Virus record (IMG/VR): IMGVR_UViG_3300021980_000006
Span: 1-22,896 of that record
Strand: one strand, 5' to 3'
Length of the DNA: 22,896 nt
From: a virus
Below are positions 2,055 through 22,707 of the stretch, piece by piece. The notes under the pieces are model-generated. The model saw only the letters and a program-made list of their open reading frames with translations, searched no databases and was not told the origin of the DNA. The position numbers and the translations under genes are program-made. Numbering within the stretch: position 1 is the stretch's first letter; each line of letters starts with the position of its first letter.

Positions 2055-3503
2055 TTAGCTCGTTATAGTTACGAGTCCGTAAAGCCTTGGATTGAGAGCT
2101 TTGAAAGCTTCTCTACTCCTGAGAGCTTTTTTCTTCGTAAAGGGGTCAACCTTTCCGTTCACAACTTCCGGCACTGCTGGAGAAACTTCAAACTTGTATG
2201 GGAAGTATCCGAATCCCATGAGGAGCGGGTCAGCAGGTTTTATTCCTACAACTATTACATCGTCCGGAAGCTGAGGATTCCAGTAAACGGCATACTTTTT
2301 GTTCAGAGTTCCTACTTTTGCAGAGCCTACGTTTCCTTTAACGTCTGCGTTTCCTTCAAATCCTTCAATGTTGCTGACGTGAGCAAGGGCATCCGTTCCA
2401 CAGAGGAGGAACTTGTTGCCAACGGGTATGAAACCGAGCTGTTTAGCGATAGCAGCATCTACTTGGTTGATAGCCTTTTTGAGCATAAACATGTGGTCCT
2501 TATCACTTACTCCGCTTGGAGGAGTTACAGACCAAGTTGCCTTTGCTCCTGAAGCTTGGGCAAGGGCGTAGATTTCAAGGTGAATCTTAGTCTCCGTTTC
2601 AAAAAGTGCCTGCTGAGTCATTGCAGAGACTACGTCGGATTCTATAGAAATGCCAAAGTAGGCTTGGATATCTTCCTCAAATTCGGAGGTCCAAGAAGCT
2701 CCGATTTTCCTTGACATTACTTTGACGCTTTCGCTTGCATACTGGAACTTGATTTCGGCGTAACCGCCAGTCTCTTGGTCGTATCTGTAGGTAGCTCTTA
2801 TTACTTCACCATTTGCAGGTGCGGAAGAGAAGGTAACGCTAATCTGACCTGTAGAATAGTTGATAGTTCCTGAAATACCGTCTCCTTGGATGTTTCCAGA
2901 GCCGTCATCCTTTCCAACTACTGTTCCAGCTACAACGGTTAGAGTTCCCGGTATTACGGGCTTATACTGGAGAGTTGCTGAAAAGTCTTGCTTTGAACCG
3001 TCTCCAGTTCCAAGAGAAGGGTCATCCACAACAAGGTCTGCGGCAACATGAGGGTGATACTGGCTATTAGTAGCAGTAGCCGCCAGTTCCGTTCCCGGCT
3101 TTAAAGAGCCTTTGACGCTGTCAAGGACAGGTTTTCTGTAGAAAATCTTTCCTTCTGGAGCGTTAAGTCCCCTTACGTGGACGATTTCAAAGGCTGAAAG
3201 GTTTTGGTAAACATAGGTAACCATTCCAAGATAGTTAAGGTCAAGAGGAGGTAGGTCTGCCGTTGTGTTGGATTCACAGATAACGGACTTACCTTGAAGG
3301 AAGGATTCAAGGACTACAGAAGGTTCTTTCTTTACTTTTGACGCAACGTGCTCAAAGGCATTGTTAAGCAGGAATGCCATAGAAGCTTTGTCGTCTGGAG
3401 ATAGATGCTCTGGTATGAGGTCTTTGTATTCTTTGGCAAGTTCAAGTCCAAAATCCCTGTAAGCCTCGTAGCTTTCAAAAGCGATGTTGAAACCTTTAGC
3501 CAT
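2055..3503 (-). CDS. Major capsid protein, T4 gp23-like
   Basis: This is a 482-residue protein starting at ATG 3503 after GGAGGTTAAG. The central region is gp23-like: MSRKIGASWTSEFEEDIQAY near 263-282, continuing FGISIESDVVSAMTQQALFE, which corresponds to the T4 'W-x-x-E-x-x-x-D-l-x-a-x-x-x-x-d-i-E' segment. The C-terminus has VVGIKPADPLLMGFGYFPYK and SREAFKALNPRLYGLV. The N-terminal 65-80 residues look like a removable prohead piece; possible protease sites are VLE (64-66) and ICE (75-77). A beta-sandwich-like insertion at about 160-243 (GTGDGSKQDFSATLQYKPVI, SGTINYSTGQISVTFSSAPA, RATYRYDQ) is a recurrent module in phage virion proteins and probably decorates the capsid surface. The gene follows its protease and scaffold, as expected for a T4-type head. 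Confidence 0.9.
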   Translation of the reverse strand: MAKGFNIAFESYEAYRDFGLELAKEYKDLIPEHLSPDDKASMAFLLNNAFEHVASKVKKEPSVVLESFLQGKSVICESNTTADLPPLDLNYLGMVTYVYQNLSAFEIVHVRGLNAPEGKIFYRKPVLDSVKGSLKPGTELAATATNSQYHPHVAADLVVDDPSLGTGDGSKQDFSATLQYKPVIPGTLTVVAGTVVGKDDGSGNIQGDGISGTINYSTGQISVTFSSAPANGEVIRATYRYDQETGGYAEIKFQYASESVKVMSRKIGASWTSEFEEDIQAYFGISIESDVVSAMTQQALFETETKIHLEIYALAQASGAKATWSVTPPSGVSDKDHMFMLKKAINQVDAAIAKQLGFIPVGNKFLLCGTDALAHVSNIEGFEGNADVKGNVGSAKVGTLNKKYAVYWNPQLPDDVIVVGIKPADPLLMGFGYFPYKFEVSPAVPEVVNGKVDPFTKKKALRSREAFKALNPRLYGLVTITS

Positions 3504-3504
3504 C

Positions 3505-4110
3505 TTAACCTCCTATAACTGGTAATCCAAGTTTTCTGTGAATTTCGGAAAGAGAAAGTTTTTGCCTGCTCTCGTTAACCCCTTTGCCTTTAGGCTCCTT
3601 ATCCTCGTTTATGGTTTTCCTGATACTCTCCTCAAACTCTTGAATTAGCTTGTCAACTTGTTCCTTGGACTTAGCCTCTTTGAGAATACCAGCTTCTCTG
3701 ATTTTGTCGCCGTAAGGAGATTCAGAGAGCTTCTGCTCTATGTATAAGGCAATCTCTTTGCGTTCAAGCTCTTCTTTTAGAAGTTTTATCTCGTCGTCCT
3801 TTTTCTTTAAAGACTCCTTTAGGTCTTTTATCTCTTCTTTGAGTTCTTCAAGATGTTCGCCTGCAATACCTTCGCTGATAAACGGCTTAAGGATATCAAG
3901 AATTCCCTCAACGGCAACTTTTGCTCCAGCAATTTCGGGGTCAGAAAGGAGCTCCTCCTTCACTTCTTCCCTGATTTTAGAAACCTTTTGCTCTATGGCT
4001 TCTATAACTCTTTCCTCAAATTCCTGACGGAGCTCTTCCTTAGCTTCTTCTTTGATAGCTTCAACAAGCTCTGGATAGTCCTTCTTTAAAGTATCCAGCG
4101 TAAGACTCAT
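3505..4110 (-). CDS. Nested in-frame scaffold protein from an internal start
   Basis: Within the protease-scaffold gene, ATG 4110 (residue 175 of the long form) is preceded by GGGAGG at 4119-4124 with an 8-base spacer, as strong as any start in the window. It lies exactly at the linker after the protease domain. The product would be about 201 residues: MSLTLDTLKKDYPELVEAIK and the coiled-coil scaffold to the shared C-terminus. Nested scaffold genes are well known in lambda (C/Nu3) and related phages. Here it would give excess scaffold over protease from one mRNA. Confidence 0.7.
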   Translation of the reverse strand: MSLTLDTLKKDYPELVEAIKEEAKEELRQEFEERVIEAIEQKVSKIREEVKEELLSDPEIAGAKVAVEGILDILKPFISEGIAGEHLEELKEEIKDLKESLKKKDDEIKLLKEELERKEIALYIEQKLSESPYGDKIREAGILKEAKSKEQVDKLIQEFEESIRKTINEDKEPKGKGVNESRQKLSLSEIHRKLGLPVIGG

Positions 4111-4632
4111 TGGTTTATCCTCCCTTGATTCTTTTATCGTCTCAGGGAAAGCTCCCGGCGTTGATGGGTCATAGACAACGTCAAAAGCAAGAAATTCGTA
4201 GTCTTCTCCAACTACTACAGTGCCGTCTGCTCTTTTTATGAGCGTTCCAGAACCCCTTGAAGAGATTCCAAACTTAACGCCGTTGTCTATGAGATTTTTC
4301 AGGATGTCTCCTTTAGGAGTTCCAACAAGGACCTCTGCTTCTCCAATTACTTCACCCTTATCGTTCATAGTGAGAGAGGTTACTTTGATAGCGGCTTCAT
4401 CAAGCCTTGTTTTACCGTCTGGAGGATGTTCTATCATTCCGAGAGCTCTGCCTTCTTTGATTAGCTCCTGATACTTGGCAACGGCTTTCTCAAGTACTTT
4501 CTTGGGGTAGATTCTCCCGTTGCCGTTCTTTACGTCTGCCCTCTGGAAGATTCCACGAAACTTATACTTGCTAGATTCTATGAGCTGAGGGGTTATCTCA
4601 GAGACAAAGTCTATTATTAACTGTTTACTCAT
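3505..4632 (-). CDS. T4 gp21-like prohead protease fused to a scaffold domain
   Basis: This is a 375-residue protein with start ATG 4632 (GAGGAGGATAACAAGG upstream). Residues 25-160 match the prohead protease of T4 (gp21, U9 family). FRGIFQRADVKNGNGRIYPK is followed by ALGMIEHPPDGKTRLDEA with the catalytic His near 69, and FGISSRGSGTL with the catalytic Ser near 124/125. The family cleaves prohead proteins after short Glu motifs during maturation. From about residue 178 onward the sequence is Lys/Glu-rich coiled coil (KKDYPELVEAIKEEAKEELR, LKESLKKKDDEIKLLKEELE), typical of a scaffold (T4 gp22 role). So one gene holds both functions, and a perfect internal ribosome binding site would yield the scaffold separately. 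It is followed directly by the capsid gene, whose ribosome binding site includes its stop. Confidence 0.87.
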   Translation of the reverse strand: MSKQLIIDFVSEITPQLIESSKYKFRGIFQRADVKNGNGRIYPKKVLEKAVAKYQELIKEGRALGMIEHPPDGKTRLDEAAIKVTSLTMNDKGEVIGEAEVLVGTPKGDILKNLIDNGVKFGISSRGSGTLIKRADGTVVVGEDYEFLAFDVVYDPSTPGAFPETIKESREDKPMSLTLDTLKKDYPELVEAIKEEAKEELRQEFEERVIEAIEQKVSKIREEVKEELLSDPEIAGAKVAVEGILDILKPFISEGIAGEHLEELKEEIKDLKESLKKKDDEIKLLKEELERKEIALYIEQKLSESPYGDKIREAGILKEAKSKEQVDKLIQEFEESIRKTINEDKEPKGKGVNESRQKLSLSEIHRKLGLPVIGG

Positions 4633-5461
4633 CCTTGTTATCCTCCTCTTCTTCACTGAAGAAGATTTCTTCTATGTCGGCAAGGAGGGCATCTATGTTC
4701 TCAATAACTCCTTCAAGCTCTTTCTCATCAACGTCGCTATCTTTTAGACCTTCAAGGAAATCAGCTATGTATTCAAGCTCTGCGATTGCGAACTTAATCT
4801 CTTTGGTGTTTTCAAGCTCCCCAAGAATCTCAAGGAGGATATTCACCCTTTCAAGGAGTTCATCTATTGTAGGCAACTGAATTGCGTTATTAGATTCACC
4901 GAATCTTTGTCTAAACCTTTTCCTATACTGCTTAAGCTCGTTTTTGTGTTTCTTAGCCCACTGTTTAACGGCTCTTAAGATTTTTGCCCGGTTCCTACGG
5001 TAATAAGCCTTTCTCTTTGCCCTTACGGATGCAGGGACTATCTTATGCCTTAGTTTCCTTACACCGACTTTAATGGTTTCAAGGATGTCTTTATCCTCCT
5101 TTTCGTTCTTGTAGAGGTCAGAAAGTTTTTCAATAAGAGGTTTTAGAACGGAGGAAGAGGTTTTAACACCCCCTTTCGCTACACTTTCTATAAGCTGGTC
5201 AAGTTTCTTTTTAATTGGTTTTCCAGAGAGGAATGCATCTACAACATCAGCAGGAGTAACAGTAGCTTCTTCTATTGGCTTTAGTTCTACCTTGCCGTCC
5301 TTTAGATAAGCTCTATAGTGCTTTCCTTCATGCAAAACAATTGCACCATCTTTGAACGTTCCTAAGATTTTGACACCGTCAAGGGATTCTTGAATCTGCT
5401 TCCTAACGGCTTCTGCTTTTGCTTCAAGGCTTTCTTGCAGGAGCTTTTCAATTACGCTCAT
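4625..5461 (-). CDS. Head-region structural or prohead core candidate
   Basis: This is a 278-residue protein. The start is ATG 5461 after GGGGGATTAGA; an upstream in-frame TTG lies in the terminator tail. The N-terminal third is mixed (SVIEKLLQESLEAKAEAVRK, then a beta-rich GTFKDGAIVLHEGKHYRAYL). The centre is very basic (RAKRKAYYRRNRAKILRAVK, KKHKNELKQYRKRFRQRF). The C-terminal 70 residues are acidic and helical, ending FFSEEEEDNKDE. The charge segregation and the position immediately before a gp21-like protease suggest an internal prohead core/scaffold-associated protein, in the way T4 has core proteins next to gp21. This is inference; I recognise no family. Its stop overlaps the protease start (ATGAGTAA). 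Confidence 0.6.
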   Translation of the reverse strand: MSVIEKLLQESLEAKAEAVRKQIQESLDGVKILGTFKDGAIVLHEGKHYRAYLKDGKVELKPIEEATVTPADVVDAFLSGKPIKKKLDQLIESVAKGGVKTSSSVLKPLIEKLSDLYKNEKEDKDILETIKVGVRKLRHKIVPASVRAKRKAYYRRNRAKILRAVKQWAKKHKNELKQYRKRFRQRFGESNNAIQLPTIDELLERVNILLEILGELENTKEIKFAIAELEYIADFLEGLKDSDVDEKELEGVIENIDALLADIEEIFFSEEEEDNKDE

Positions 5462-5556: not shown

Positions 5557-5573
5557 AAGCAATTGAATTGCAC
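5557..5573 (-). promoter_or_regulatory. Operator-like repeat upstream of the head-unit promoter
   Basis: GTGCAATTCAATTGCTT on the minus strand; the core GCAA-N5-TTGC is exact. It lies just past the stop of the basic protein gene. It is six bases upstream of TTGACC. A weak alternative promoter, TTGTAT with TAAATC 17 bases on, would place it in a spacer, but the TTGACC promoter is stronger. Confidence 0.45.
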
Positions 5574-7750: not shown

Positions 7751-8319
7751 TTCACCCCCGTGCTACCGAAACCTCTCTTTCCTCTTGCCGATGGAAAAAA
7801 TTCTTCAAACCGGTCAAAGATTTCTTTGTTAGCCCCTATGTAGATGGGATATTCTTTGCTGAATACCGCCTGACAAATACGGTCGCCGTGGTGGATTTCA
7901 AACGTTCCAGAAGAAAAGTTTATGAGCAATGCTTTAACGGTATCCCTGTAGTCATTGTCCACGAATCCGGGACTGTTTAAGACGGTAATTCCATACTTCC
8001 ATGCTATTCCGCTTCTCGGTCTTATGTCCATAAAACAGTTTCTCGGCATGTAAACCTTGAAACCGAGAGGAATTAAAGCTCTTCCCATCGGAGGTAAAAA
8101 GTCTTTTTTACCTTCCTTTGAAAAGTATTCCTTGTTGTCTCTGTTTCTAAAAAGGATTCCCTCGCTTAAATCTGCTTTACAATCAAGTCCGTTGGAGCTG
8201 TATTTGACAACGGGCAGAAGTTCTTCACTCTTAGCAACAATCACGATTCCTAACTCTCTTATCGTTGCACTCCAGTGTCTAAATGTATCTACGTCCTGCG
8301 GGATTGCTCTGAATTCCAT
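7747..8319 (-). CDS. dut: dUTP diphosphatase (trimeric dUTPase family)
   Basis: This 190-residue protein carries the ordered dUTPase motifs. Motif 1 is around GLDCKADL at 44-51 (divergent). Motif 2 is PRSGIAWKYGI at 101-111 and motif 3 is GFVDNDYRDTVKALLIN at 118-134, with the catalytic Asp in DNDYRD. Motif 4 is GDRICQAVF at 145-153, and motif 5 is RGKRGFGSTG at 179-188. The family hydrolyses dUTP to dUMP, keeping uracil out of DNA and supplying dUMP for dTMP synthesis. The protein is longer than the usual 150 residues because of an insertion at about 55-80. I chose ATG 8319, five bases from GGAGG; ATG 8322 is equally in frame. It shares an ATGA junction with the downstream minor head protein. 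Confidence 0.9.
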   Translation of the reverse strand: MEFRAIPQDVDTFRHWSATIRELGIVIVAKSEELLPVVKYSSNGLDCKADLSEGILFRNRDNKEYFSKEGKKDFLPPMGRALIPLGFKVYMPRNCFMDIRPRSGIAWKYGITVLNSPGFVDNDYRDTVKALLINFSSGTFEIHHGDRICQAVFSKEYPIYIGANKEIFDRFEEFFPSARGKRGFGSTGVK

Positions 8320-8513
8320 CATTCCCTCCTTCCGTAAGTTTTCTTGAACTGGTATCTCCAGACTTCAAGCTCATTAGCTGTTTCTTGGCTCAAGCTGAGG
8401 ATTTTGTAATAAAGGTCCCTGTCTTCATTTCTTAGAAAAACCCCAAGCAGTTCAACGCACTTTTCTTGCTTTTGTAGAATCTCTCTTGCTTTTTCTATTA
8501 GTTCCTTCGCCAT
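8319..8513 (-). CDS. Small helical protein
   Basis: This is a 64-residue, charged, fully helical protein (AKELIEKAREILQKQEKCVE, LYYKILSLSQETANELEVWR). The start ATG 8513 follows AAAGGAGACTGAA. Its TGA stop overlaps the start region of the dUTPase gene (GAATGATG), so translation is probably coupled. It has one cysteine and no recognised family. A helical hairpin acting as an adaptor is a plausible but unsupported reading. Confidence 0.6.
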   Translation of the reverse strand: MAKELIEKAREILQKQEKCVELLGVFLRNEDRDLYYKILSLSQETANELEVWRYQFKKTYGRRE

Positions 8514-8514
8514 T

Positions 8515-8937
8515 TCAGTCTCCTTTTACGAGTCGTTCATAATACTGCAAATATCTTGCATCCTTTATTTCCTCAAATTCGCTTATAGGTAAGTAAATTC
8601 TTCTTTCAGCTCTCTCCTTGAAGAAGAGGACAAAACCTTTGCTGAAGAACTTTTCTACTTCTGCTATGAAGACAGAGCCGTTAAAGAGAATGACAGCTCT
8701 CTTAGCTCCTCTGAGCTGAGCTTTTTTGAGAAGTTCGTAAGGGAAGCCGAAACTCATAGTCTTTTGGTGTATTCCGTTGCCGTTCTCTTTCTTGATGATT
8801 TCCTCTCCGAAGAGTCTTGCTATTTTCCTAACTTTCTTCTTTGTGTCGCACTTTAGCTCTAAGAAACAGTAGCCGTTTACGCTTATGTAGTATCTATTCT
8901 CGTCTATGTCCCTAAATTCCACAGCAACTACTGCCAT
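8515..8937 (-). CDS. Hypothetical protein
   Basis: This is a 140-residue protein, basic and beta-rich (VEFRDIDENRYYISVNGYCF, AKRAVILFNGSVFIAEVEKF, ERRIYLPISEFEEI) with one central helix. ATG 8937 follows AGAGGTCCAGAA. There is no membrane segment or catalytic motif, and I do not recognise the family. The preceding Cys-rich gene ends 11 bases upstream and the following small gene starts directly after its stop, so it is embedded in the same transcript. Confidence 0.6.
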   Translation of the reverse strand: MAVVAVEFRDIDENRYYISVNGYCFLELKCDTKKKVRKIARLFGEEIIKKENGNGIHQKTMSFGFPYELLKKAQLRGAKRAVILFNGSVFIAEVEKFFSKGFVLFFKERAERRIYLPISEFEEIKDARYLQYYERLVKGD

Positions 8938-9170: not shown

Positions 9171-9351
9171 CTTCTCCCTCCTCCAGAGAAAGGTTTTCAA
9201 GGTCTATCATTGCAAGTAGGGGCATGAGCAAGAGAATTACTAATAGAGCAAATATCTTGCATAAGAGATAAAATGTTTCTGTAGTTGCAGAGAGAATCTC
9301 AACGACAGCTTCTTTTGAATGCTCTTTAAGTCGCTGTAGGTACCTTTCCAT
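9148..9351 (-). CDS. Small membrane protein
   Basis: This is a 67-residue protein with GGAGGGAGCGGAAA before ATG 9351, overlapping the end of the portal gene by 26 bases. A charged N-terminal helix precedes one hydrophobic segment at about 28-49 (YLLCKIFALLVILLLMPLLA). A strongly acidic C-terminus follows (ENLSLEEGEDETE). Single-pass topology is predicted. Family unknown; size and layout would fit an accessory phage envelope protein. The next gene begins within its 3' end. Confidence 0.6.
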   Translation of the reverse strand: MERYLQRLKEHSKEAVVEILSATTETFYLLCKIFALLVILLLMPLLAMIDLENLSLEEGEDETERAL

Positions 9352-10633
9352 TTTCCGCTCCCTCCATCTTTAGAATGTGTTTAAGAACGTAGTCCTTATC
9401 AACTATCGGATTGCCTTCCTTGTCCGTAAGGCTTAAGAGCTCCTGAGCAACCTGAACCCTTTTGAGTAGGGATTCCATTCTTAGCTCTTCTTCTATGTAG
9501 TTAGGGGAATACATCGTAAGAGTAAATTCAGCGTCTTTAATGCCGTGCTTTTCAAGGTGGATTTCTATCAGCCTTTTGACGCCGTCAACAATAGCATTTT
9601 GAATGCTTTTGACAGAACGGCTGAACTGAATGGAAATTGAGGAAAGGGTTGCTCTTGTAGAAAATCCTTCTTCATTGGCAAGATAGGCTTTTGGAATTTT
9701 CAGGGCGGCAAAGAGCATTTTCTGGAAGTACTCAATATCTGCAATGTCTGCTATGTTAGAAGCTCCAGCAAGGCTTTCTACTCTTGAACCTCTACCGCCT
9801 TCAAAGACTGGGAAGTAGAAATCCTCATCTGCAGCAAGGAAATCGGGTTTTGCTACAAACTTTCCAGTTTTCGGGTCTATAAGCCTCTTCTTTTTGAACT
9901 TCTTCTTTAGCTTATCAATGAACGCTTCTGCTTTTTCTGGGGGCATGTTACCAACGTCTATGTAGAAAACCCATCTGTTTGGAGCTCTGGTAAGCCTGTA
10001 GATAACAACGGCATCCTCCATAAGTGCTAACTGCCTGTAAATTCGGCGGGCGTCCTCTAAAATAGGGTAGCCGTAAGGATAGAACTTAACGTCTTCAAGG
10101 AGTCTAAAGTGAATCATCTCGTCAGGTTTAAACTCAACCTTTTCTCCGCCGATTTTCTGTTCAAATCCTTCAAGCCTACCTTTGTCGTCTTCTTTTCTTT
10201 CTACCGTTTTAGCAGGTCTGTGGTAAAAACCAAGAACGCCTTTTCCTTCATCTGAAACAACTTCCCAGAAAGAATCTCCCAGCTTAAAGAGTTCCTTAGC
10301 AATGAAGGGACACTTTTCTTCAATCTTTATACGGTCAAAGAGCTCCTTAATTAGTTTTTCTACTTTTGGGTTTTTGCTTGAATAGCTGAATATTCTTCCT
10401 GTATCGGGGTCTCTTTGGCAACACTCATCGGTGTAAACTTTCGCTGCTGCTGCAATATACGGCATTTCCATCATCTTCTCGTATTCGGCGTATCTTTCCA
10501 TTCTGTCTGCAGAGAGGTTAAGGAGAGAGGCTAATGGAGAAGTAGTCTCGTAACTGTAACCTTTGGGTTCTGCTTCGGAAGAGCTCTCCTTGTTTCCGGA
10601 AAAGAATTTGAATAGTTCCTTAAACACAGGCAT
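9326..10633 (-). CDS. Portal protein, T4 gp20-like
   Basis: This 435-residue protein matches the T4 gp20 portal family through its central region. IYRLTRAPNRWVFYIDVGNM is close to the family's YRITRAPERRVFYIDVGNLP. After it come KAEAFIDKLKKKFKK, an LAADEDFYFPVFEGGRGSRV segment (family: EDfwlPr-eGgrgT) and an ADIEYFQKMLFAALKIPKAY clip/stem region. The family forms the 12-subunit ring at the unique capsid vertex through which DNA enters. It is slightly shorter than T4 gp20 (524 residues). The start is ATG 10633 after GAGGTAGAAA, within the preceding gene. It sits with terminase upstream and gp21- and gp23-like genes downstream, but about 5 kb of other genes separate it from the protease, unlike in T4. 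Confidence 0.9.
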   Translation of the reverse strand: MPVFKELFKFFSGNKESSSEAEPKGYSYETTSPLASLLNLSADRMERYAEYEKMMEMPYIAAAAKVYTDECCQRDPDTGRIFSYSSKNPKVEKLIKELFDRIKIEEKCPFIAKELFKLGDSFWEVVSDEGKGVLGFYHRPAKTVERKEDDKGRLEGFEQKIGGEKVEFKPDEMIHFRLLEDVKFYPYGYPILEDARRIYRQLALMEDAVVIYRLTRAPNRWVFYIDVGNMPPEKAEAFIDKLKKKFKKKRLIDPKTGKFVAKPDFLAADEDFYFPVFEGGRGSRVESLAGASNIADIADIEYFQKMLFAALKIPKAYLANEEGFSTRATLSSISIQFSRSVKSIQNAIVDGVKRLIEIHLEKHGIKDAEFTLTMYSPNYIEEELRMESLLKRVQVAQELLSLTDKEGNPIVDKDYVLKHILKMEGAENGKVPTAT

Positions 10634-11339: not shown

Positions 11340-13211
11340 TTAGTTGTTCCACCACCACTCTTCTTCTTCTACTTCTCCTTCATGTTCTCCCATACTCGGC
11401 TCTATCACTTTTGAAATCTGATTGTCTATAAAACAGCTATAAACTGCTCCGCACAGAGCATCTGCAACGTCCTTACTTCCATCTGGCGGATGGTCAACTT
11501 TTCTACCGTCAAATTCAAGGGCAAAGAGCTCCTGCAAAAGAGGTTCATAGTGGTAGAGAATTACTCTTTGGTCAAAGAAAGCTTCTTTTAAGCTCATGTA
11601 AGGTTCTAAGGTAGCGTCAACGGAGATTCTTTCGGCGTTGTAGCCTCTCTGTTTAAACTGCTGAATGGATTCTCGGCTCTCAAATTTGTCATAAGAAATC
11701 CTTCTAACATAGAGTCCGTACTTTTCTACTATTGCATAGATAAACTCTCTTATTCTGGAAATGGGAATTTCCGACTTAGGTATTACTCTAAGAACAAAGT
11801 CAACCTCAGCAATTGGGAGTTCCTCATAATGCTCTGTCCCATCAGGGAGTAGTCTTTTTACCTTCTTAAATCCTGCAAAGTGAACCATAGCAATGCCTGT
11901 AGCATCTCCAGTAACTCCAAGGTCTATGTGGATATACCTTTTGAGACTTCTATCAAGGTTCATCTTCTCATAGTCTATCTGAATGTCTCCAAGCTCAATG
12001 GAAACTTCTTTACTAAATGGATGTTTCTTATCAGGGTCTATACACCGCAAAATGGCTTCTCTATCGTGGAAGAACGGAGCGGTAGTTAGGACAGGTCTTC
12101 CTGCTATATCCCTAATAGCCTTTTCTATGTTCCTTTCAAAGGAGAACCTGAACTCTTCCGGTACTAAAATCTGTTCAAAACCGCAGTTCTGATAAGTTTT
12201 CCCCTTGGCAATAAAACAGTCTGCACAGTTTTTTTCGCTATCAATGATTCTTGGTGGCTGGGAGAGACTTCCAAGACAAACTCTGAACCTTTTTGAGTTC
12301 TCGTAGCCGCTTTTAACATCATAAATGGCATACCTACGGATGTAGGCAAGAGGATTGCCTTTGAACTCCCTTATCATTCTTTCTGTAAAGTCTTCTGGAT
12401 ACTTAGCAGAAGAGAGAACAAGGAGCTTTCCCGGGACCCTGCCTTTTTGCTGGAATCTTGATTCCAGACGCCTGTAGAGAGAATCAAAGAGCTCTTCTGC
12501 TATGTCGTAAACCTCGTTGCCTTTTCTCTTCTGTCCCAAGAAGTTAGCCTCGTCAATCACGGCGGAAAAAACGTTCAAGGATATAGCCTCGTTACTTATC
12601 GGAAGAGGCTGGAGGATTATGTTGTTGTTAGTTCTAAGCTCTTCCTTCTTAATTTCTATCTCTCCTTCCAAGATAAAGTGCTTAAAGAAAGGACTCGCCA
12701 TAAGGTCGTTTTTGAGCCTATTGAAAAAGGAGGTTAGGGCGGTTTTCAGGTTGACTGAAAAGTTGACGAGGGCAATTTCTGTAGATGGGTCTAAGCCGTA
12801 GTATTCTTGGGGATTTCTGAGAATAAAAAGCTTGTAAAAGATGTAAGACATTGCTATGATGCCAAAAGTCGTTTTCCCCCATCCTATAGAGCCTGTGAGC
12901 AGGGCTATTATGTAGTCGCCGTTAAAGAAATTCTCAAGCTCTTTAAGGAGCTTAGGTCTTATGTATTTTGCTTTGTTTAAGTAGTAGGGAGAGAGAACAA
13001 ATTCCCTTATAGAGACAGGCTTGAATCTATAGTCTGCGTATCGTATCTGGTCCAATAAAGGAGAGTAACCATACTTTTGAATTTCCTGAAGGATTTCTAT
13101 AAGCAAGTCAATTGCGTCTGGAGAAAGATCAAGTTCTTCTACGATTCTTTCAAGCTCAAAAAGTCCTTCTTTCTGAAGCCTATCAACTGCTTGAACGATA
13201 GAGTCCTTCAT
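11340..13211 (-). CDS. Terminase large subunit
   Basis: This 623-residue protein is the packaging motor ATPase plus nuclease. Walker A is GSIGWGKT at 107-114, Walker B is VFSAVIDEA near 214-222, and the coupling motif is LLVLSSAKYP near 264-272. The C-terminal RNase H-like nuclease begins with YIHIDLGVTGDATGIAM (catalytic Asp near 430) and ends with a DHPPDGSKDVADALCGAVYS motif carrying the last acidic residues. An insertion at about 329-344 has CADCFIAKGKTYQNC, a possible metal-binding loop between the two domains that is not a standard terminase feature. The start is ATG 13211, overlapping the stop of the small membrane protein. The acidic, Trp-rich C-terminus (EGEVEEEEWWWNN) may contact the portal. 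Confidence 0.93.
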   Translation of the reverse strand: MKDSIVQAVDRLQKEGLFELERIVEELDLSPDAIDLLIEILQEIQKYGYSPLLDQIRYADYRFKPVSIREFVLSPYYLNKAKYIRPKLLKELENFFNGDYIIALLTGSIGWGKTTFGIIAMSYIFYKLFILRNPQEYYGLDPSTEIALVNFSVNLKTALTSFFNRLKNDLMASPFFKHFILEGEIEIKKEELRTNNNIILQPLPISNEAISLNVFSAVIDEANFLGQKRKGNEVYDIAEELFDSLYRRLESRFQQKGRVPGKLLVLSSAKYPEDFTERMIREFKGNPLAYIRRYAIYDVKSGYENSKRFRVCLGSLSQPPRIIDSEKNCADCFIAKGKTYQNCGFEQILVPEEFRFSFERNIEKAIRDIAGRPVLTTAPFFHDREAILRCIDPDKKHPFSKEVSIELGDIQIDYEKMNLDRSLKRYIHIDLGVTGDATGIAMVHFAGFKKVKRLLPDGTEHYEELPIAEVDFVLRVIPKSEIPISRIREFIYAIVEKYGLYVRRISYDKFESRESIQQFKQRGYNAERISVDATLEPYMSLKEAFFDQRVILYHYEPLLQELFALEFDGRKVDHPPDGSKDVADALCGAVYSCFIDNQISKVIEPSMGEHEGEVEEEEWWWNN

Positions 13212-13430: not shown

Positions 13431-13496
13431 CTATCTCATGTTTTTTCCCTTTGTCTCCAGAAGCTTGGCAAGGTAGCTTTCCATACACGGTTTCAT
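13431..13496 (-). CDS. Possible 21-residue peptide between terminase genes
   Basis: An ATG overlapping the small terminase stop (ATGA) opens a 21-codon frame (MKPCMESYLAKLLETKGKNM, then R) ending in TAG 22 bases before the next gene's ATG. The upstream AAGGAAG is a modest binding site. The tight overlap suggests translational coupling, but the frame is very short and has no recognisable feature. It may simply maintain ribosome passage to the next gene. Confidence 0.22.
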   Translation of the reverse strand: MKPCMESYLAKLLETKGKNMR

Positions 13497-13981
13497 TTAT
13501 TTTCTTCCTTGCTCTTCTTCTCCTTTAAAGCCTGTAATGCATCTATTACCTTGGCTATTTTCTCCCTTTCTTCCTTCGGAATCTCAGCTATCCTGCTGTC
13601 AACCTGAATCTGCTGTGTTGCTACCATGTTAATCTCGTCTGGAACTCTTGGGAGAAGTCCCATACTCTGCATTATCTGGACTGCACGGGCGTTAGTCTCC
13701 CTTATTTCTGCCAAGACCATTACTTTCTCACGGACATCCTCAGCCTTGTCATAGTTCTTCCAGAGCTCTTTCTCTATAGCCTGAAATTTGACTTTGACGT
13801 CCCACGGATGGAGACCGTCTTCGTCTCCTTCCCTAATTTCCTTAATTATCTGGTGAATCCTTTGAGGAGTCTTACCAAGGAGCTTGGCTATTTCAGTCTG
13901 AGATAGTCCTCTGGCAAGGAGCTTTATCACTTTACTGCGGAGTTCATAGTTCTTTTTGGAGCGTGTGGCTTTTTTCGCCAT
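13493..13981 (-). CDS. Terminase small subunit candidate
   Basis: This is a 162-residue protein. It has a basic N-terminus (AKKATRSKKNYELRSKVI), a helix-turn-helix at about 25-50 (GLSQTEIAKLLGKTPQRIHQ) and then a long helical, charged region suited to oligomerisation. HTH plus helical core, together with the position just upstream of the large terminase, fits phage TerS proteins, which bind the packaging start site and feed DNA to TerL. The assignment rests on architecture and position rather than on a diagnostic motif; an HTH regulator is the alternative. The start is ATG 13981, ten bases after GGGAGG. Its TGA overlaps the ATG of a 21-codon open frame. Confidence 0.68.
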   Translation of the reverse strand: MAKKATRSKKNYELRSKVIKLLARGLSQTEIAKLLGKTPQRIHQIIKEIREGDEDGLHPWDVKVKFQAIEKELWKNYDKAEDVREKVMVLAEIRETNARAVQIMQSMGLLPRVPDEINMVATQQIQVDSRIAEIPKEEREKIAKVIDALQALKEKKSKEENK

Positions 13982-13994
13982 CTATTGAAATCCT

Positions 13995-14025
13995 CCCTAT
14001 AAAAAGAGGCTTTTAAAGTCTCTTT
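13995..14025 (-). terminator. Weak terminator-like hairpin after the ParB/Srx gene
   Basis: Just after the TGA stop the transcript reads AAAGAG-A-CTT-TAA-AAG-C-CTCTTT then TTATAG: a 9-bp stem with one A-C mismatch, a 3-base loop and a short U-rich tail. It lies between the ParB/Srx gene and the small terminase gene. The stem is AT-rich, so at high growth temperature it may be inefficient and allow partial read-through. Confidence 0.35.
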
Positions 14026-14828
14026 CAAGTTTCACTGTCTCCATTGGAGCTTGAAGACTCTTGCATTTCTAAGCTTTCACCGTTTTCCTCAAGGTCCCTC
14101 TTGATGGCATAGGCAATTCCAGCTACCACATAGCCGTTTTCTATCTCTGTAATGGGAGCTTTAATCAACTTCATAAAGGCTTCTTCATCTGAAAGTTGAA
14201 GGTCTCTCTTGTACTTTTCTATCAGGGTCTTAACTACGTTCATGTTTTCCTTGGAAAGCATAACGGTGAAAGCTTCTCTTTTTACGTTCTCTATTTGCTC
14301 TTCAATCTCGGCATGGTCAAAGAGCTCTTGAGTTTCCTGCTCATCCTCTTCAATAACGGCTTTAAGAGCTTCTATGTCTTCGTCAAAAAATCCTTCCAGA
14401 AGTTCTACAGGAACGGTTTCTTCGAGGAGTCTTAGGTATTCTCTATAAGCCTCCTCGTCGCTATCAAACTTTCCTCTGATTGTGTCTATAAGACCAGTAG
14501 CAAGGACTGCCTTTTCTTCTGGAATCTCAGCTATGAGGAATGGAGCTTCTTCTACGCCGGCGTGCTTTAGTAGGTAGTAACGGTGCTCTCCATCTATGAT
14601 TACGTATTTGTTCTTTCCCTCATCGTAGCGGACTAAGATAGGCTCTAAATAGCCAACTTTTCGGATAGATTCGGCAAGTTTTTTAAAGGCGGTTTCTCCC
14701 ATTACGTTAGGGTTATACTCGTTAGGTTCCACATCTTTTAGTTTCAGGATTTCAAGTCTTATGGGAGCTTTTATCTCTTCTGGTCTCACTTTAGCAGCAA
14801 TTTCTGAAAGGCGATGTTTAAATGCCAT
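14025..14828 (-). CDS. ParB/Srx-fold domain protein (phage ParB-like)
   Basis: This is a 267-residue protein with a ParB N-terminal-type domain at about 24-110. It contains PNEYNPN (family: NPR/NPN type), an LAESIRKVGYLEPILVR helix-strand segment and YVIIDGEHRYYLLK (75-88), the GEHR nucleotide-binding loop. Unlike the ParB at 19437-20483, it has no obvious helix-turn-helix. The C-terminal 130 residues are acidic and helical, ending in a Ser/Asn/Glu-rich tail. Such stand-alone ParB-like proteins are common beside phage terminase genes and are often labelled nucleases, but that activity is not proven by sequence. ATG 14828 follows GAGGAGGGACAAAA. Its ribosome binding site appears controlled by the upstream hairpins. 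It is probably cotranscribed with the radical SAM unit and possibly leads into the terminase genes. Confidence 0.78.
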   Translation of the reverse strand: MAFKHRLSEIAAKVRPEEIKAPIRLEILKLKDVEPNEYNPNVMGETAFKKLAESIRKVGYLEPILVRYDEGKNKYVIIDGEHRYYLLKHAGVEEAPFLIAEIPEEKAVLATGLIDTIRGKFDSDEEAYREYLRLLEETVPVELLEGFFDEDIEALKAVIEEDEQETQELFDHAEIEEQIENVKREAFTVMLSKENMNVVKTLIEKYKRDLQLSDEEAFMKLIKAPITEIENGYVVAGIAYAIKRDLEENGESLEMQESSSSNGDSET

Positions 14829-14833
14829 TTTTG

Positions 14834-14872
14834 TCCCTCCTCACTAAGGAAGGAGGGCGTAAAGCCCTCCTT
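14834..14872 (-). promoter_or_regulatory. Mutually exclusive RNA hairpins controlling the ParB/Srx gene's ribosome binding site
   Basis: Upstream stem: AAGGAGGGC pairs with GCCCTCCTT around TTTAC (14850-14872), a perfect 9-bp stem. The 3' arm also contains CCCTCCT (14851-14857), complementary to the gene's Shine-Dalgarno AGGAGGG (14835-14841). Either the first stem forms and the ribosome binding site is free, or the anti-Shine-Dalgarno captures it. The layout is that of an attenuator or riboregulator. No ligand domain is recognised. Confidence 0.5.
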
Positions 14873-14878
14873 TAAGCT

Positions 14879-15025
14879 TTACTTCTTAGCGGTAGCTTTC
14901 TTGGCACCGCTGGTCTTAGTAGTTCCTTTCTGGCTGGTCTTGGTAGCTCCTTCCTTCTTGGCGGTAGCTTTTCTTGTAGTTCCTTGACTTCCGCCTGTTT
15001 TGGTTCCACCCGAAGACATCGGCAC
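14879..15025 (-). CDS. Small basic Gly/Thr/Lys-rich protein, copy 2
   Basis: This is a 48-residue protein beginning at GTG 15025, eight bases from GGGAGG; that start gives MPMSSGGTKTG, aligned with copy 1, whereas the ATG two codons later is 14 bases from the site. After GTTRKATAKK it continues with imperfect Thr/Lys repeats (GATKTSQKGTTKTSGAKK, then ATAKK). It is almost entirely Lys, Thr, Gly, Ala and Ser and is predicted disordered. The upstream copy's stop codon is in its Shine-Dalgarno region. It may bind DNA or acidic partners, or be a substrate of the radical SAM enzyme; both are inference. It is too short for ordinary gene calling and easily missed. Confidence 0.65.
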   Translation of the reverse strand: MPMSSGGTKTGGSQGTTRKATAKKEGATKTSQKGTTKTSGAKKATAKK

Positions 15026-15030
15026 GGCTG

Positions 15031-15204
15031 TTACCTCCCTACTTGAATTTTTTTACCCGGCTTGTAGCCAGCACCTGAAAATCCAGCATGTTTAGCTGCT
15101 TTTACCATTGAGCGTGTAGCCTGATTTACTTTTACTTTTTTGGCTACTGCTTTCCTCGTAGTTCCCGTTACTCCTGTTTTCGTTCCACCCGGAGACATCG
15201 GCAT
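15031..15204 (-). CDS. Small basic Gly/Thr/Lys-rich protein, copy 1
   Basis: This is a 57-residue, highly basic protein. The start is ATG 15204 with AAGGAGGATGCT upstream; the longer open frame starting at 15234 overlaps the radical SAM gene and lacks a binding site. The N-terminus MPMSPGGTKTG and the following GTTRKAVAKK are shared with the next gene, at nearly the same nucleotide sequence, so the two are tandem duplicates. The C-terminal half (KVNQATRSMVKAAKHAGFSG, then KPGKKIQVGR) is unique. The composition resembles histone-tail or DNA-condensing peptides. An alternative reading is a modified-peptide precursor, because it directly follows a radical SAM gene and has a conserved N-terminus with a variable C-terminus. 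Neither is shown by the sequence alone. Confidence 0.72.
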   Translation of the reverse strand: MPMSPGGTKTGVTGTTRKAVAKKVKVNQATRSMVKAAKHAGFSGAGYKPGKKIQVGR

Positions 15205-15214
15205 AGCATCCTCC

Positions 15215-16636
15215 TTAATCAAACTCAATTCCAAAGTCTTTGAGGAAGGAGGTTGAAAGGACTCCGTTTACTGTTCCTGTTTTTGGATTCGTTTGGGCTT
15301 TTAGGAGCTCTACTGAAGGTAGGAATACGGCGTAAGGGTCTCCGTTTTCGTCAACAAGGATGTTTCCTTTTTCGTCTCTTACTTTCCAGACAGTTAGGTC
15401 TTCAAAGAGGTTGTGTCCAGCTTCCTTATGCCAGCCGTAGCGAAGAAGCTCTACAAAGTTCATGGACTTGAGAGCTTTAGACATTGCCCTGTCTATCTGG
15501 AGGCTGGAGTGGATATCCTTAAATCTTGTGAAGTATGGGAATGCAATTTGATTGCAGAGTTCTTTGGCAGTTTCTATGAATTCTGAAAGGGTGAAAAGGA
15601 AGATGTCAGACTCTTTTTTCTTACGGAGTTCATTAAGAATCATCTGGATGGTGGGGACGACTTTAGGAGAGAAGACATCTACAAGATTTTGGTAGGTTAC
15701 AACGTAGCTTCTTTCATCCTCTGGAGAGTAGTTTTCTGCCTTTATCAGAGTATTAACTTCCCATTGATAGCTTATTCTGATTTCCAAGTCTTTTGCAATC
15801 TTTTCTATCTCGTTAAAGAGTTCTGCAAGTTTTGGAAAGTTTGCGTAGACTCCTTTTCTGTTTACGTAGTAGTATTTGCTTGCCGGTGGAGATAGTTCAA
15901 GGAGTTTGAAGTCTTCTGGGATTATCTTGAGAGTTCCACCTCTGAAATTCAGAGCTCCAAAAGTTACTTCTTTTGCTCCTACCTTTTTTGCCCTTGTCAA
16001 AAGTTTTTCTATCTCTTTGAGTGTAGGGAATTGGGAATGAAGGAAAGGGACCACGTTTATTCCAGTTGGTATTCCAGCCTCATTGAGCTTGGCAACAAGC
16101 TCAAATCTCTCTTCAGGTGATAGAGATTCAGGTTCATACTTTTTCCTGTATCTATCACTTAAAGAGGTTATTGTTATCAGTCCAGCTCTCGGAGTAGACA
16201 TCTGTGTAAGAGTATTGAAGAGTTCTTTTGTGTGGATTCCTTTTGTCGTAAAGAAGAACGGGAAACCGTATCGGTCAAAAATTTCTAAAATCTGCCTTGA
16301 AATGCCTTCACAACCGGGGACGAAAATATCTGAGTTGTTAGATGCGTAAATTGGATAGCGATTCCTTAGATACCAGTCTAAGAAACTGTTAGGGTTTGGA
16401 CTTTTATCTGCCTTTTCTATTCGGGAAACTGTGGCTTTTATGAGCTCTGCAGGACTGCCGAGTCCACCTACAGAAAGGTTAAAGATTTTTTTCTTATTTA
16501 TGCAGGCAAAACAGTAGGCACAGCCTCTAAAGCACCAGCGGTAGGCTTCGTAGTTAACACCTATAGGAAATGCCGGAATAGAGCCAAAAACTGTGAAGTT
16601 GTTAGATTCTTTAAAGAAACTAACTTTCTTAGCCAA
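15215..16636 (-). CDS. Radical SAM protein of the SplB/COG1533 type
   Basis: This 473-residue protein carries the radical SAM cluster motif CFRGCAYC at residues 35-42 (CxxxCxxC), with a further Cys at 45. It continues with segments typical of the SplB-like group (COG1533): SNNSDIFVPGCEG near 100-111, FFFTTKG near 128-133, an ITITSLSDRYRKKYEPESLS segment and an AGIPTGINVVPFLHSQFP stretch. The N-terminal half is therefore a SAM-cleaving [4Fe-4S] domain; the C-terminal half is unassigned. The start is TTG 16636 preceded by GGAGGGATATC. It is followed by two tandem small basic proteins and a ParB/Srx-fold gene. The substrate is unknown; DNA lesion/base chemistry (as in spore photoproduct lyase) or modification of the adjacent peptides are both conceivable. 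A copy of the operator-like repeat is inside the gene at 15541-15557. Confidence 0.88.
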   Translation of the reverse strand: MAKKVSFFKESNNFTVFGSIPAFPIGVNYEAYRWCFRGCAYCFACINKKKIFNLSVGGLGSPAELIKATVSRIEKADKSPNPNSFLDWYLRNRYPIYASNNSDIFVPGCEGISRQILEIFDRYGFPFFFTTKGIHTKELFNTLTQMSTPRAGLITITSLSDRYRKKYEPESLSPEERFELVAKLNEAGIPTGINVVPFLHSQFPTLKEIEKLLTRAKKVGAKEVTFGALNFRGGTLKIIPEDFKLLELSPPASKYYYVNRKGVYANFPKLAELFNEIEKIAKDLEIRISYQWEVNTLIKAENYSPEDERSYVVTYQNLVDVFSPKVVPTIQMILNELRKKKESDIFLFTLSEFIETAKELCNQIAFPYFTRFKDIHSSLQIDRAMSKALKSMNFVELLRYGWHKEAGHNLFEDLTVWKVRDEKGNILVDENGDPYAVFLPSVELLKAQTNPKTGTVNGVLSTSFLKDFGIEFD

Positions 16637-16648
16637 GATATCCCTCCA

Positions 16649-16693
16649 AAAATAGGAAAAGGGACTAACGGGCTTTCTATTACCCGCAGTCCC
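16649..16693 (-). terminator. Terminator-like hairpin at the 5' end of the radical SAM transcript
   Basis: On the transcript, GGGACT-G-CGGG and CCCG-TT-AGTCCC pair (10 bp with an internal bulge) around a 10-base loop, followed by TTTTCCTATTTTT. It meets the criteria for an intrinsic terminator, yet it begins only a base or two after the predicted transcription start and precedes the gene's Shine-Dalgarno. It may stop read-through from the early cluster, attenuate the new transcript, or act as a 5' stabiliser. Confidence 0.65.
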
Positions 16694-16701
16694 TTGAAGA
16701 T

Positions 16702-16730
16702 ATTTTAATGCAATTAATTTGCTAAGTCAA
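16702..16730 (-). promoter_or_regulatory. Promoter of the radical SAM unit with embedded operator-like repeat
   Basis: TTGACT (16725-16730), a 17-base spacer TAGCAAATTAATTGCAT (16708-16724) that is one copy of the dispersed repeat, and TAAAAT (16702-16707). The predicted start near 16695 falls at the first base of a terminator-like hairpin. It is in the only intergenic gap before the radical SAM gene, and I see no alternative promoter. Confidence 0.7.
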
Positions 16731-18192: not shown

Positions 18193-18215
18193 ACGATTCG
18201 GGTTTTTGCCATCGT
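18193..18215 (-). promoter_or_regulatory. Conserved 5'-leader hairpin (third copy)
   Basis: Arms ACGAT and ATCGT, inner GG/CC, loop CAAAAA, and one extra C in the bulge relative to the other two copies; GGAGG follows after one base. The sequence around it, from the -10 element to the Shine-Dalgarno, is nearly the same as at 22643-22681, so promoter, operator, hairpin and ribosome binding site were duplicated as a unit. Confidence 0.5.
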
Positions 18216-18223
18216 CAAATTTC

Positions 18224-18251
18224 AATATATGCAATTACTTTGCGTTGTCAA
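18224..18251 (-). promoter_or_regulatory. Promoter with embedded operator-like repeat
   Basis: A perfect TTGACA (18246-18251) and TATATT (18224-18229) are spaced by 16 bases. The repeat ACGCAAAGTAATTGCAT (18229-18245) fills the spacer. The -35 includes the stop codon of the DUF488 gene. Predicted initiation near 18217 is just upstream of the conserved leader hairpin. It should drive the cluster of small genes from 18181 to 16748. Confidence 0.72.
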
Positions 18252-18694
18252 TCAAGAGATATCAATTGAGCTTCACCATCTTTGTTAATGTCATAAACTT
18301 TCACTCCAAAATCCATGATAAGGAAAACTGCAATTACGCTCCTGTGGCATTTTTCAAAATTTCCACAGGCACACATTAGACATACGGTTTCTTCTCTTGT
18401 GAGGTCAAGGAGCTTTTCAAGTCCAAGCCACACTTTTTGTTCGGTTTCTTTGAACAGTCCACACTCGTTCCCTTCTTTCCAGAAGAGAGAACCTCCGAGG
18501 TTTCCTCCCATCCATTCATACTTGATGCCGTGCGTAAAGAGAATGTCGGGGAGTTTTTTAATTGAGGTCCATTTTTGGAATCTACTGTAAGGGCGTTCTC
18601 TGATATCAACTACCGTAGTGATTCCGTTTTTCTTGAGGTTCTCAATAAATACCTTTTCTGGTAGATTAGAATAGCCGGTCATGTAGATTTTCAT
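18248..18694 (-). CDS. DUF488 family protein
   Basis: This 148-residue protein fits DUF488. It begins with the TGYSN loop and a VVDIRERPYSRFQ segment at about 28-40 (family: vDvRxxPxSR), followed by an NLGG motif near 65-68 and the diagnostic LMCACGNFEKCHR at 106-118 (family: LxCxExxxxCHR). The biochemical role of DUF488 is not well established; the conserved Cys/His cluster suggests metal binding or a redox/rhodanese-like reaction. The start is ATG 18694 after GGGAGGAGAAAAGCA; an upstream in-frame TTG lacks a binding site. Its TGA stop is literally the TGA of the next promoter's TTGACA, so the gene ends inside a promoter. Confidence 0.85.
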   Translation of the reverse strand: MKIYMTGYSNLPEKVFIENLKKNGITTVVDIRERPYSRFQKWTSIKKLPDILFTHGIKYEWMGGNLGGSLFWKEGNECGLFKETEQKVWLGLEKLLDLTREETVCLMCACGNFEKCHRSVIAVFLIMDFGVKVYDINKDGEAQLISLD

Positions 18695-18736
18695 TGCTTT
18701 TCTCCTCCCTTGCAGTATTCGCAAATACCGTTAGCA

Positions 18737-19436: not shown

Positions 19437-20483
19437 CTACACCTCCACGGTCTCTTTTAAGTATTTCGTAGCTATCTTAAGCAATCTATTTGCGTTTCTA
19501 ATTATGGCATCGTTACCGTTAGCAAGGGTTTTTATATCGTTAGCGATGTTGCGGATTTCCTCCATATCCTTTATCAAACCTTCGTTAGCTTGGTTTTCTA
19601 AGGACGGCAAAGGATGAGTATTTGAAGGAGCGTTTTCTGGCGTTGTAGGAGAAATAGCTTGCGGATTAAGCACCTTGTCTGCCGGTATCTCTATAGGTGG
19701 TAACTCAGGAAGAGAAATTTCCTCCAGTGCTAATTTAGTGCTCTGTTCTATCTTCTTTGCTCTTACAAACTTTTCAACATCTTCTATGGTCCACTTACTT
19801 TCAGGGTTTTCTAAGTACTCTTTTTGGTCTTCAGGCGAAAGTTTCGCAAGTTCACGGGCAACGGTTATGCTGATTTCAAATTTTTTGAGCTTTTCAAAGA
19901 TTTCAGGGATAAGGTTCAAAAGTCTCAGTCTCTTAGTTATGTGGGAATTGGAGACATTAAGTAGCTTAGCAACTTCTGTTTTCTTAAGTCCTCTCTCCTT
20001 GATAAGCCTGTCTATTAGCTCGGCTTCAAGGGCAGGGTTATCGGTTCTTTGGAAGTTTTCAATAAGGGTAAGGACGGCATCATCGCCGCCCTCTTTTACA
20101 ATGCACTTGACTGTTTCAAAGCCAAGGAGTCTTGCGGCATTTAATCTTCTTCTACCAGCAATGACCCTATATCTTCCCTCTCCTGTAGGAGCTACAAGAG
20201 GAGGCTCAAGGATTCCGTACTTTTCTACGCTTTCAAGGAAGTTTTTAGGGACATCAAATTCCGGGAAGTCAATAAGAGACAAGGGAATTTCCCTTAAAAC
20301 TTCTCTCTCCCCTTCAAGCTGGTAGATTAGCTCTTCTGCTTCAGGAATAGAAAGCTCTTTCTGCCTCTCTCTCAAAACTTTAAGAGTTTCGGGCTTTACA
20401 AGGCGTGTAATAGCGTCCTTCCCTTCAAGGATTCTGACTTTAACTCTATCTTTGACTTTGCCTTTATTCTCTATCTTTATCAT
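19437..20483 (-). CDS. ParB-family DNA-binding/CTPase-type protein
   Basis: This 348-residue protein has the full ParB layout. After an N-terminal extension of about 60 residues, the ParB/Srx-fold domain carries GEGRYRVIAGRRRLNAAR at about 101-118, matching the GERRxRA-type nucleotide-binding loop, and ENFQR at 142-146. A helix-turn-helix follows at about 166-190 (LKKTEVAKLLNVSNSHITKR). A Pro/Ser-rich linker (about 265-295) leads to a C-terminal helical region with repeated Asn/Ile that may dimerise. ParB proteins bind centromere-like sites and spread using CTP. No ParA is in view, so it could act in plasmid-like prophage partition, replication control or transcription. The start at ATG 20483 has GGAGGCAACC upstream. 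Its stop codon lies within the next gene's ribosome binding region, so the two genes are coupled. Confidence 0.85.
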   Translation of the reverse strand: MIKIENKGKVKDRVKVRILEGKDAITRLVKPETLKVLRERQKELSIPEAEELIYQLEGEREVLREIPLSLIDFPEFDVPKNFLESVEKYGILEPPLVAPTGEGRYRVIAGRRRLNAARLLGFETVKCIVKEGGDDAVLTLIENFQRTDNPALEAELIDRLIKERGLKKTEVAKLLNVSNSHITKRLRLLNLIPEIFEKLKKFEISITVARELAKLSPEDQKEYLENPESKWTIEDVEKFVRAKKIEQSTKLALEEISLPELPPIEIPADKVLNPQAISPTTPENAPSNTHPLPSLENQANEGLIKDMEEIRNIANDIKTLANGNDAIIRNANRLLKIATKYLKETVEV

Positions 20484-22433: not shown

Positions 22434-22454
22434 ACGATTCGGTTTTGCCATCGT
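22434..22454 (-). promoter_or_regulatory. Conserved 5'-leader hairpin (second copy)
   Basis: Arms ACGAT and ATCGT, inner GG/CC pair, loop CAAAA; the Shine-Dalgarno GGAGG follows one base after the stem. It is nearly identical in sequence to the copies at 22647-22667 and 18193-18215 and occupies the predicted first bases of the transcript. Confidence 0.5.
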
Positions 22455-22633
22455 CAAGATTGAAATTTATGCAAATTCTTTGCATAGTCAATAAGGTTAA
22501 AGACAAGCCAAAAGGGAAATAGGAAGATTATCAGTAGGAAAGAGCAAAACCTCTCTTTTCTTTTTGCTTTCTGTCTGCGTCTAAAGAGTTCTTTTCTCAT
22601 TTCTACTTCCCAGCCACCCGGAGCTCCTGCCAT
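22454..22633 (-). CDS. Small single-pass membrane protein
   Basis: This is a 59-residue protein starting at ATG 22633, which is preceded by GGAGGTGTACAAG; an in-frame GTG 15 bases upstream lies within the ribosome binding site and is less likely. Residues about 11-27 are strongly basic (RRRQKAKRKER). A hydrophobic segment follows at about 29-47 (FCSFLLIIFLFPFWLVFNLI), so an N-in topology is predicted by the positive-inside rule. I do not recognise the family. Notably, the last dozen codons (IDYAKNLHKFQS) are the same DNA as the next promoter and its operator, so coding and regulatory sequence overlap completely there. Small early membrane proteins in phages often interfere with host functions or alter the envelope, but nothing here shows which. 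Confidence 0.6.
   Translation of the reverse strand: MAGAPGGWEVEMRKELFRRRQKAKRKERFCSFLLIIFLFPFWLVFNLIDYAKNLHKFQS
22464..22491 (-). promoter_or_regulatory. Promoter with perfect 17-bp inverted-repeat operator
   Basis: TTGACT (22486-22491) and TAAATT (22464-22469) are 16 bases apart. The spacer holds ATGCAAAGAATTTGCAT (22469-22485), a perfect 7-bp inverted repeat around three bases and the best example of the dispersed element. The predicted start near 22457 lies just before the leader hairpin. The whole promoter is inside the 3' end of the preceding small membrane protein gene. Confidence 0.68.
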
Positions 22634-22646
22634 CTTGTACACCTCC

Positions 22647-22667
22647 ACGATTCGGTTTTGCCACCGT
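22647..22667 (-). promoter_or_regulatory. Conserved 5'-leader hairpin next to the ribosome binding site
   Basis: On the transcript, arms ACGGT and ATCGT pair (one G-U wobble), GG pairs with CC, and the loop is CAAAA with a GA bulge. GGAGG follows after one base. The same hairpin occurs at 22434-22454 and 18193-18215. There the wobble position is a Watson-Crick pair (ACGAT/ATCGT), so pairing is kept although a base changed. It sits at the predicted 5' end of the mRNA. Confidence 0.5.
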
Positions 22668-22675
22668 CAAATTTC

Positions 22676-22703
22676 AATGTATGTAAACTACTTGCATTGT
22701 CAA
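22676..22703 (-). promoter_or_regulatory. Promoter with embedded 17-bp operator-like repeat
   Basis: Reading the minus strand, TTGACA (22698-22703) and TACATT (22676-22681) are 16 bases apart. The 17 bases following the -35 hexamer, ATGCAAGTAGTTTACAT (22681-22697), form an imperfect inverted repeat that matches the dispersed GCAA-N5-TTGC element. The predicted start is near 22669, right at a hairpin. It would drive the small membrane protein gene and probably the genes beyond. Confidence 0.65.
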
Positions 22704-22707
22704 ACAA

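Follow-up and report, generated by a model that had tools for sequence, protein, structure and literature searches.

A radical SAM gene and two genes for lysine-rich peptides at the presumed head of a late operon in temperate phages of vent Aquificota

What joins a radical SAM enzyme to two small and strongly basic peptides in a phage genome? The question is raised by a stretch of viral DNA (an IMG/VR record of 22,896 bases, here called the window, with its main genes all on the minus strand) in which the three genes lie in tandem (Table 1). The preliminary description of this DNA took the common N-terminus and variable tails of the peptides, next to a radical SAM gene, for the layout of a modified-peptide (RiPP-like) locus and offered DNA-associated virion peptides as the alternative. 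T4-type internal head proteins, too, have a variable tail behind a conserved leader, and the trio resembles a set of head-filling peptides with an unusual enzyme beside it at least as much as it resembles a RiPP locus. No report of a phage radical SAM-peptide pair was found in the literature searched.

Table 1. Positions of the trio, of its flanking signals and of the neighbouring head and packaging genes in the window
Feature	Position	Strand	Remarks
Late-type (class B) promoter TTGACTTAGCAAATTAATTGCATTAAAAT	16702..16730	-	kept in three phages; consensus score 10/12
Promoter-spacer palindrome GCAAN5TTGC, 13 bp	16710..16722	.	one of 20 in the window
Hairpin and U-rich stretch	16659..16695	-	at most a few nt from the presumed transcript start
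Radical SAM protein (rSAM)	15215..16636	-	473 aa, TTG start; PF04055; 84% ortholog in G117
pep1	15031..15204	-	57 aa, net charge +13; own conserved C-terminal motif
pep2	14879..15025	-	48 aa, GTG start, net charge +11
GC-rich inverted repeat, pep2-ParB gap	14852..14870	-	sequence varies by phage, hairpin kept
ParB N-terminal-domain protein	14025..14828	-	267 aa, next gene of the operon; PF02195, E 6e-15
HTH protein at terminase small subunit position	13493..13981	-	sits before TerL
Large terminase (TerL)	11340..13211	-	tblastn to 357 phage records
T4-like portal, gp20	9326..10633	-	PF07230, E 1e-68
T4-like prohead protease gp21, S77	3505..4656	-	PF03420, E 5e-27
T4-like major capsid protein, gp23	2055..3503	-	PF07068, E 5e-25

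The trio is found in one family of temperate phages, whose hosts are heat-loving bacteria of vents (Aquificota), and the window is best explained as coming from a phage of such bacteria that is temperate, contractile-tailed and T4-like in its head. Two related prophages lie in Aquificota genomes: L003 in G001 (WFYG01000008.1, a Thermovibrio MAG, in which a genome scan finds the enzyme 84% identical) and L007 in G117, where a search through 136 genomes from that phylum finds an intact, full-length enzyme that is likewise 84% identical. The greater part of the window proteins are matched in both prophages, as a rule at 50-94% identity, and the gene order, rSAM-pep1-pep2-ParB-TerS-TerL, is the same in both. 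The G117 locus runs from rSAM through pep1 (MPMSPGATKTGGTKGTTRKASARVKAGKVNKGARSVVKAMKHGGFAGSGYKTGKKLK) and pep2 (MPMSPGATKTGGTKGTTKKATAKAQGKATTKATAKAKK) to ParB. In G001, ~440 bp are gone, comprising the last ~130 codons of the enzyme and the start of pep1, with the 3' part of pep1 and the entire pep2 still present; either the prophage is damaged or the assembly is wrong here, and the case is uninformative on co-occurrence. A fourth relative (G123), with a 95% identical terminase, was left out of the co-occurrence count, its contigs breaking on both sides of the trio so that the assembly gap falls exactly at that interval. In two distant relatives (G020 and G013), whose large terminases are only ~37-39% identical, the trio is absent from the stretches that were read. 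The preliminary account of a radical SAM gene followed by two tandem small basic peptides with a common N-terminus is correct, coordinates included, and the orthologs stand in the same order.

That homologs of the enzyme should have such peptides as neighbours is borne out among close relatives, in which enzyme and peptides are found only together (the peptides are present in both of the two genomes with a close enzyme homolog), and fails for the one distant match (29% identity, no C-terminal domain) that the enzyme finds in 2.9 million viral contigs. The latter lies in L002, a different phage, where three genes in a row (6543-8546) code for a ParB-like protein (recognised by eye), an unassigned protein of 184 aa and a short radical SAM enzyme, with no such peptides adjoining. 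The peptides themselves have no match in the same 2.9 million contigs or in phage records. The sole, weak match of the enzyme in phage records (MT835833) was rejected; its surroundings look bacterial. The proposed link between enzyme and peptides rests on their position in three related phages.

The peptides carry net charges of +10 to +15, with 0-1 acidic residues and neither Cys nor Trp, and are closely packed behind the enzyme gene (gaps of 10 nt between rSAM and pep1 and 5 nt between pep1 and pep2). We take them to be real genes, because dN/dS between the window and its G117 orthologs is ~0.1 (~0.08 for pep1 and ~0.10 for pep2, with dS saturated and the genes short), and not chance reading frames, because both occupy the same place in G117, and in G001 so do pep2 and the remaining 3' portion of pep1. 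The near-identity of their N-terminal DNA is confirmed, 32 of 36 nt (89%) being identical over the common start. That they then diverge is true of the two paralogs and untrue of pep1 followed from phage to phage: its tail is kept as RSxVKAxKHxxFxGxGYxxGKK, with one K/R exchange in G001. The tail of pep2 is low-complexity K/T/A, and the peptide is 48, 38 and 36 aa long in the three phages. Compared within a phage, the N-terminal DNA of pep1 and pep2 is identical at 54/69 and 58/72 nt; between orthologs of different phages identity is lower, at 49/69 and 49/72 nt. The comparison suggests concerted evolution of the N-terminal DNA. Gene conversion or repeated duplication would each give such a pattern, and each suggests a common partner for the two N-termini. 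A gp21-type cleavage site, [I/L/V/A/M/T]xE, where such a protease would cut off a targeting segment, is absent from four of the five peptides, and the match in G001 pep2 is at chance level; this counts against a likeness to T4 internal proteins.

The enzyme is, by its motif and its core profile alike, a member of the radical SAM superfamily: the cluster motif CX3CX2C reads C35-FRG-C39-AY-C42, with C45 in addition, and the Pfam match to PF04055 has an E of 3e-7 and 31.1 bits against a cutoff of 29.5. An N-terminal core (~1-240) is followed by an extra C-terminal domain (~240-473), 230 aa for which searches returned no convincing match. The nearest named families, PA0069 and Rv2578c (NCBIfam), align over core residues ~27-240 with scores far under their cutoffs (E 6e-17 and 61.8 of 360 bits for rSAM_PA0069, E 5e-12 and 45.6 of 430 bits for Rv2578c); these being its best matches, the COG1533-like class proposed earlier stands. 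From both families the window enzyme differs in its C-terminal addition and in being phage-borne. The phage protein family phrog_13321 also aligns with the core (E 2e-15), with a profile of ~300 positions that does not include the C-terminal domain. Of the six cysteines, four belong to the cluster region, and C109 and C361 are the only ones beyond C35-C45; this count leaves no SPASM/Twitch auxiliary cluster, and the enzyme is, as had been said, not a SPASM maturase. AlphaFold models are too poor to assign the extra domain (pLDDT 55 for the full enzyme, 48.5 for the C-terminal domain), and the Foldseek matches, to COG1533-like folds with spore photoproduct lyase among many others, are for that reason taken as weak hints only. 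The ribosome-binding site, GGAGG, and the TTG start are kept in the three phages, and dN/dS between the window and G117 is ~0.08, a rough value at saturated synonymous sites. Proteins of the DUF5131 (Gp37/Gp68) type whose cysteines lie close together, possibly the products of a second radical-SAM-like gene, are encoded in related prophages at L011 375-1081 (G117:C13 40374-41081) and L032 2417-3184, the latter recognised by eye only.

When would the trio be expressed, and with what? The class B promoter that precedes it has the form TTGACTTAGCAA-N5-TTGCATTAAAAT followed by a strong 5' hairpin, and there are three copies of it in each of the two readable prophages, with hairpin sequences that differ between copies. 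Of the other two, one precedes the gene that lies ahead of the tail sheath and one precedes baseplate J (in the G117 sheath copy TAAAAT is replaced by TAACAT, and position 3 of the first hexamer is a T), and the pattern was found nowhere else in the three host genomes outside the prophages. Because this promoter type also starts the sheath and baseplate operons, we infer that the trio opens a late operon and is expressed late. No further class B promoter lies between rSAM and the capsid gene, and the intervening genes are on one strand with small gaps, so that rSAM, pep1 and pep2 would be the first three genes of a head and packaging operon. The GC-rich inverted repeat that parts pep2 from ParB counts against that model; alternative pairings are possible for it in the window. 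The hairpin upstream of rSAM is identical at 36-37 of 37 nt in three phages, versus ~80% in rSAM coding DNA; with a fold z of -2.9, it would be a terminator-like gate. Of the gated promoter that the preliminary description assigned to the trio, then, the promoter and its hairpin are real, and what must be given up is that they are specific to the trio, since they are of the late type of the phage. A moron, that is, a stand-alone cassette with its own promoter, was considered and ruled out: the promoter type starts all three late operons.

Because the trio presumably heads an operon with T4-like portal, protease and capsid genes, we favour basic, head- or DNA-associated late peptides, and the virion-peptide alternative of the preliminary description gains weight. 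The whole of this reading, late head peptides with an enzyme that acts in the same step, is tentative, and we place it somewhat short of an even chance. The operon would be switched on late, once the regulator bound at the palindrome lets go and transcription gets past the 5' hairpin. The lysine-rich peptides would then bind DNA and be taken into the head: in the manner of T4 internal proteins, they would share an N-terminus for recognition or targeting and neutralise DNA with their variable basic bodies. The co-made single-cluster radical SAM enzyme would act in the same late step. Its likeliest single substrate would be the peptides, recognised via their common N-terminus, and the product would be modified head peptides, not an exported RiPP; this is the weakest step, and we expect it to fail rather than to hold.

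The precedent is that of T4 IPI-IPIII, and the likeness is one of layout, with no membership claimed: small basic proteins (presumably late here as well) with a common N-terminal segment and divergent bodies, in a phage with a gp20/gp21/gp23-type head. In the T4 internal proteins the common part is the N-terminal capsid targeting sequence only, and their lysines contact the packaged DNA (PMC3012670, PMC7697877). The window peptides differ in being without the gp21 cleavage motif. We know of no radical SAM partner of the T4 internal proteins. Modification of the peptides by the enzyme is plausible from the gene arrangement; the full proposition, that a phage radical SAM enzyme modifies its own head-packaged, lysine-rich DNA-binding peptides, is unlikely, if well short of negligible. 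Were it true, the assembly of virions would involve radical SAM chemistry, something for which no report was found in the literature searched, and a modified-peptide pathway would serve not secretion but the building of virions or the protection of DNA. Even otherwise, the trio is a compact and conserved module of thermophile phages, with a clear late-promoter signature and a peptide role that is testable.

The late operon context would also serve a reading that takes the peptides for ordinary basic proteins that belong to the head or bind DNA and has the enzyme act elsewhere, on phage DNA, a capsid protein or host RNA, the two being neighbours only because all of these genes are late. The slot upstream of ParB does look like a cargo slot: the order ParB-X-TerL is kept in Vibrio and Stenotrophomonas phages (L014, L034, L035), and in these relatives the gene next upstream of ParB, or in Summit the next but one, codes for a glycosyltransferase, in the position that rSAM and the peptides occupy in the window phage. 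The presence of spore photoproduct lyase among the many COG1533-like fold matches would also fit this reading. We hold this reading to be a real possibility, though a doubtful one, since enzyme and peptides are not found apart among the close relatives and no thymidine-hypermodification genes were recognised among the window genes checked.

As a strict RiPP-like locus, the trio would have an enzyme-bound leader in the common N-terminus and cores in the tails, and the mature peptide would be bioactive through a radical-made crosslink, epimer or methyl group. The layout is indeed that of radical SAM RiPP loci with their SPASM maturase and precursor, with the enzyme gene adjoining tandem paralogs whose N-termini have been homogenised; the conserved motif of the pep1 core contains aromatic and Gly residues, and the extra 230-aa domain is missing from the L002 enzyme, which has no peptides beside it. 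What the locus is without makes this reading rather improbable: no RRE, SPASM cluster, protease or exporter was recognised in the Pfam, PHROG and NCBIfam hits of the neighbours, the peptide residues are unusual for cores (no Cys or Trp, and in pep2 a low-complexity tail of variable length), and the locus sits in a late structural operon of a phage. A DNA repair enzyme like spore photoproduct lyase, accompanied by chromatin-like peptides, is hardly credible, its Foldseek matches coming from a poor model, with no sequence match of the enzyme to the lyase's Pfam family or to the lyase in the PDB, and with deep-vent hosts, if such is the habitat, being little exposed to UV.

The palindrome in the promoter spacer, GCAAN5TTGC (extended, ANGCAAWTNAWTTGCNT), is widespread in these phages. 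The window has 20 sites, from 1958 to 22471, versus 0.34 expected by shuffling, and L003 has 15 versus 0.28 expected, with a density of ~1 per 1.1-1.8 kb within and between genes (window, C13 of G117 and C8 of G001). Counted over the entire genomes of G117 and G001, most copies fall on the prophage, and the preference for a half-site spacing of 5 is sharp and specific. The set resembles L5 stoperators, KorB sites or Noc sites; it may be bound by a phage repressor (L033 8520-9122) or by a ParB/Noc/KorB-like protein encoded at 19437-20483.

Several other features of the window may be recorded. A C5-cytosine DNA methyltransferase gene (PF00145) and an overlapping 130-aa ORF (5573-6977) are unmatched in both related prophages and are probably recently gained cargo, and a DUF488 protein (18248-18724) matches the PADLOC candidate defence model PDC-M45B (E 1e-21). 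A second promoter class, TTGACAATGCAA-N5-TTGCATAAATT, lies in the presumed early region, and the palindrome occupies the spacer of both classes. A second repeated promoter-leader unit, TTGACAATGCAAN5TTGCATAAATT with a leader of the type TTTGACGATGGAAAAACC..ATCGTGGAGG behind it, occurs at 18204-18255, 22444-22495 and 22656-22707 of the window and at 32022, 35764 and 36392 of C13; the short inverted repeat of this leader abuts the ribosome-binding site.
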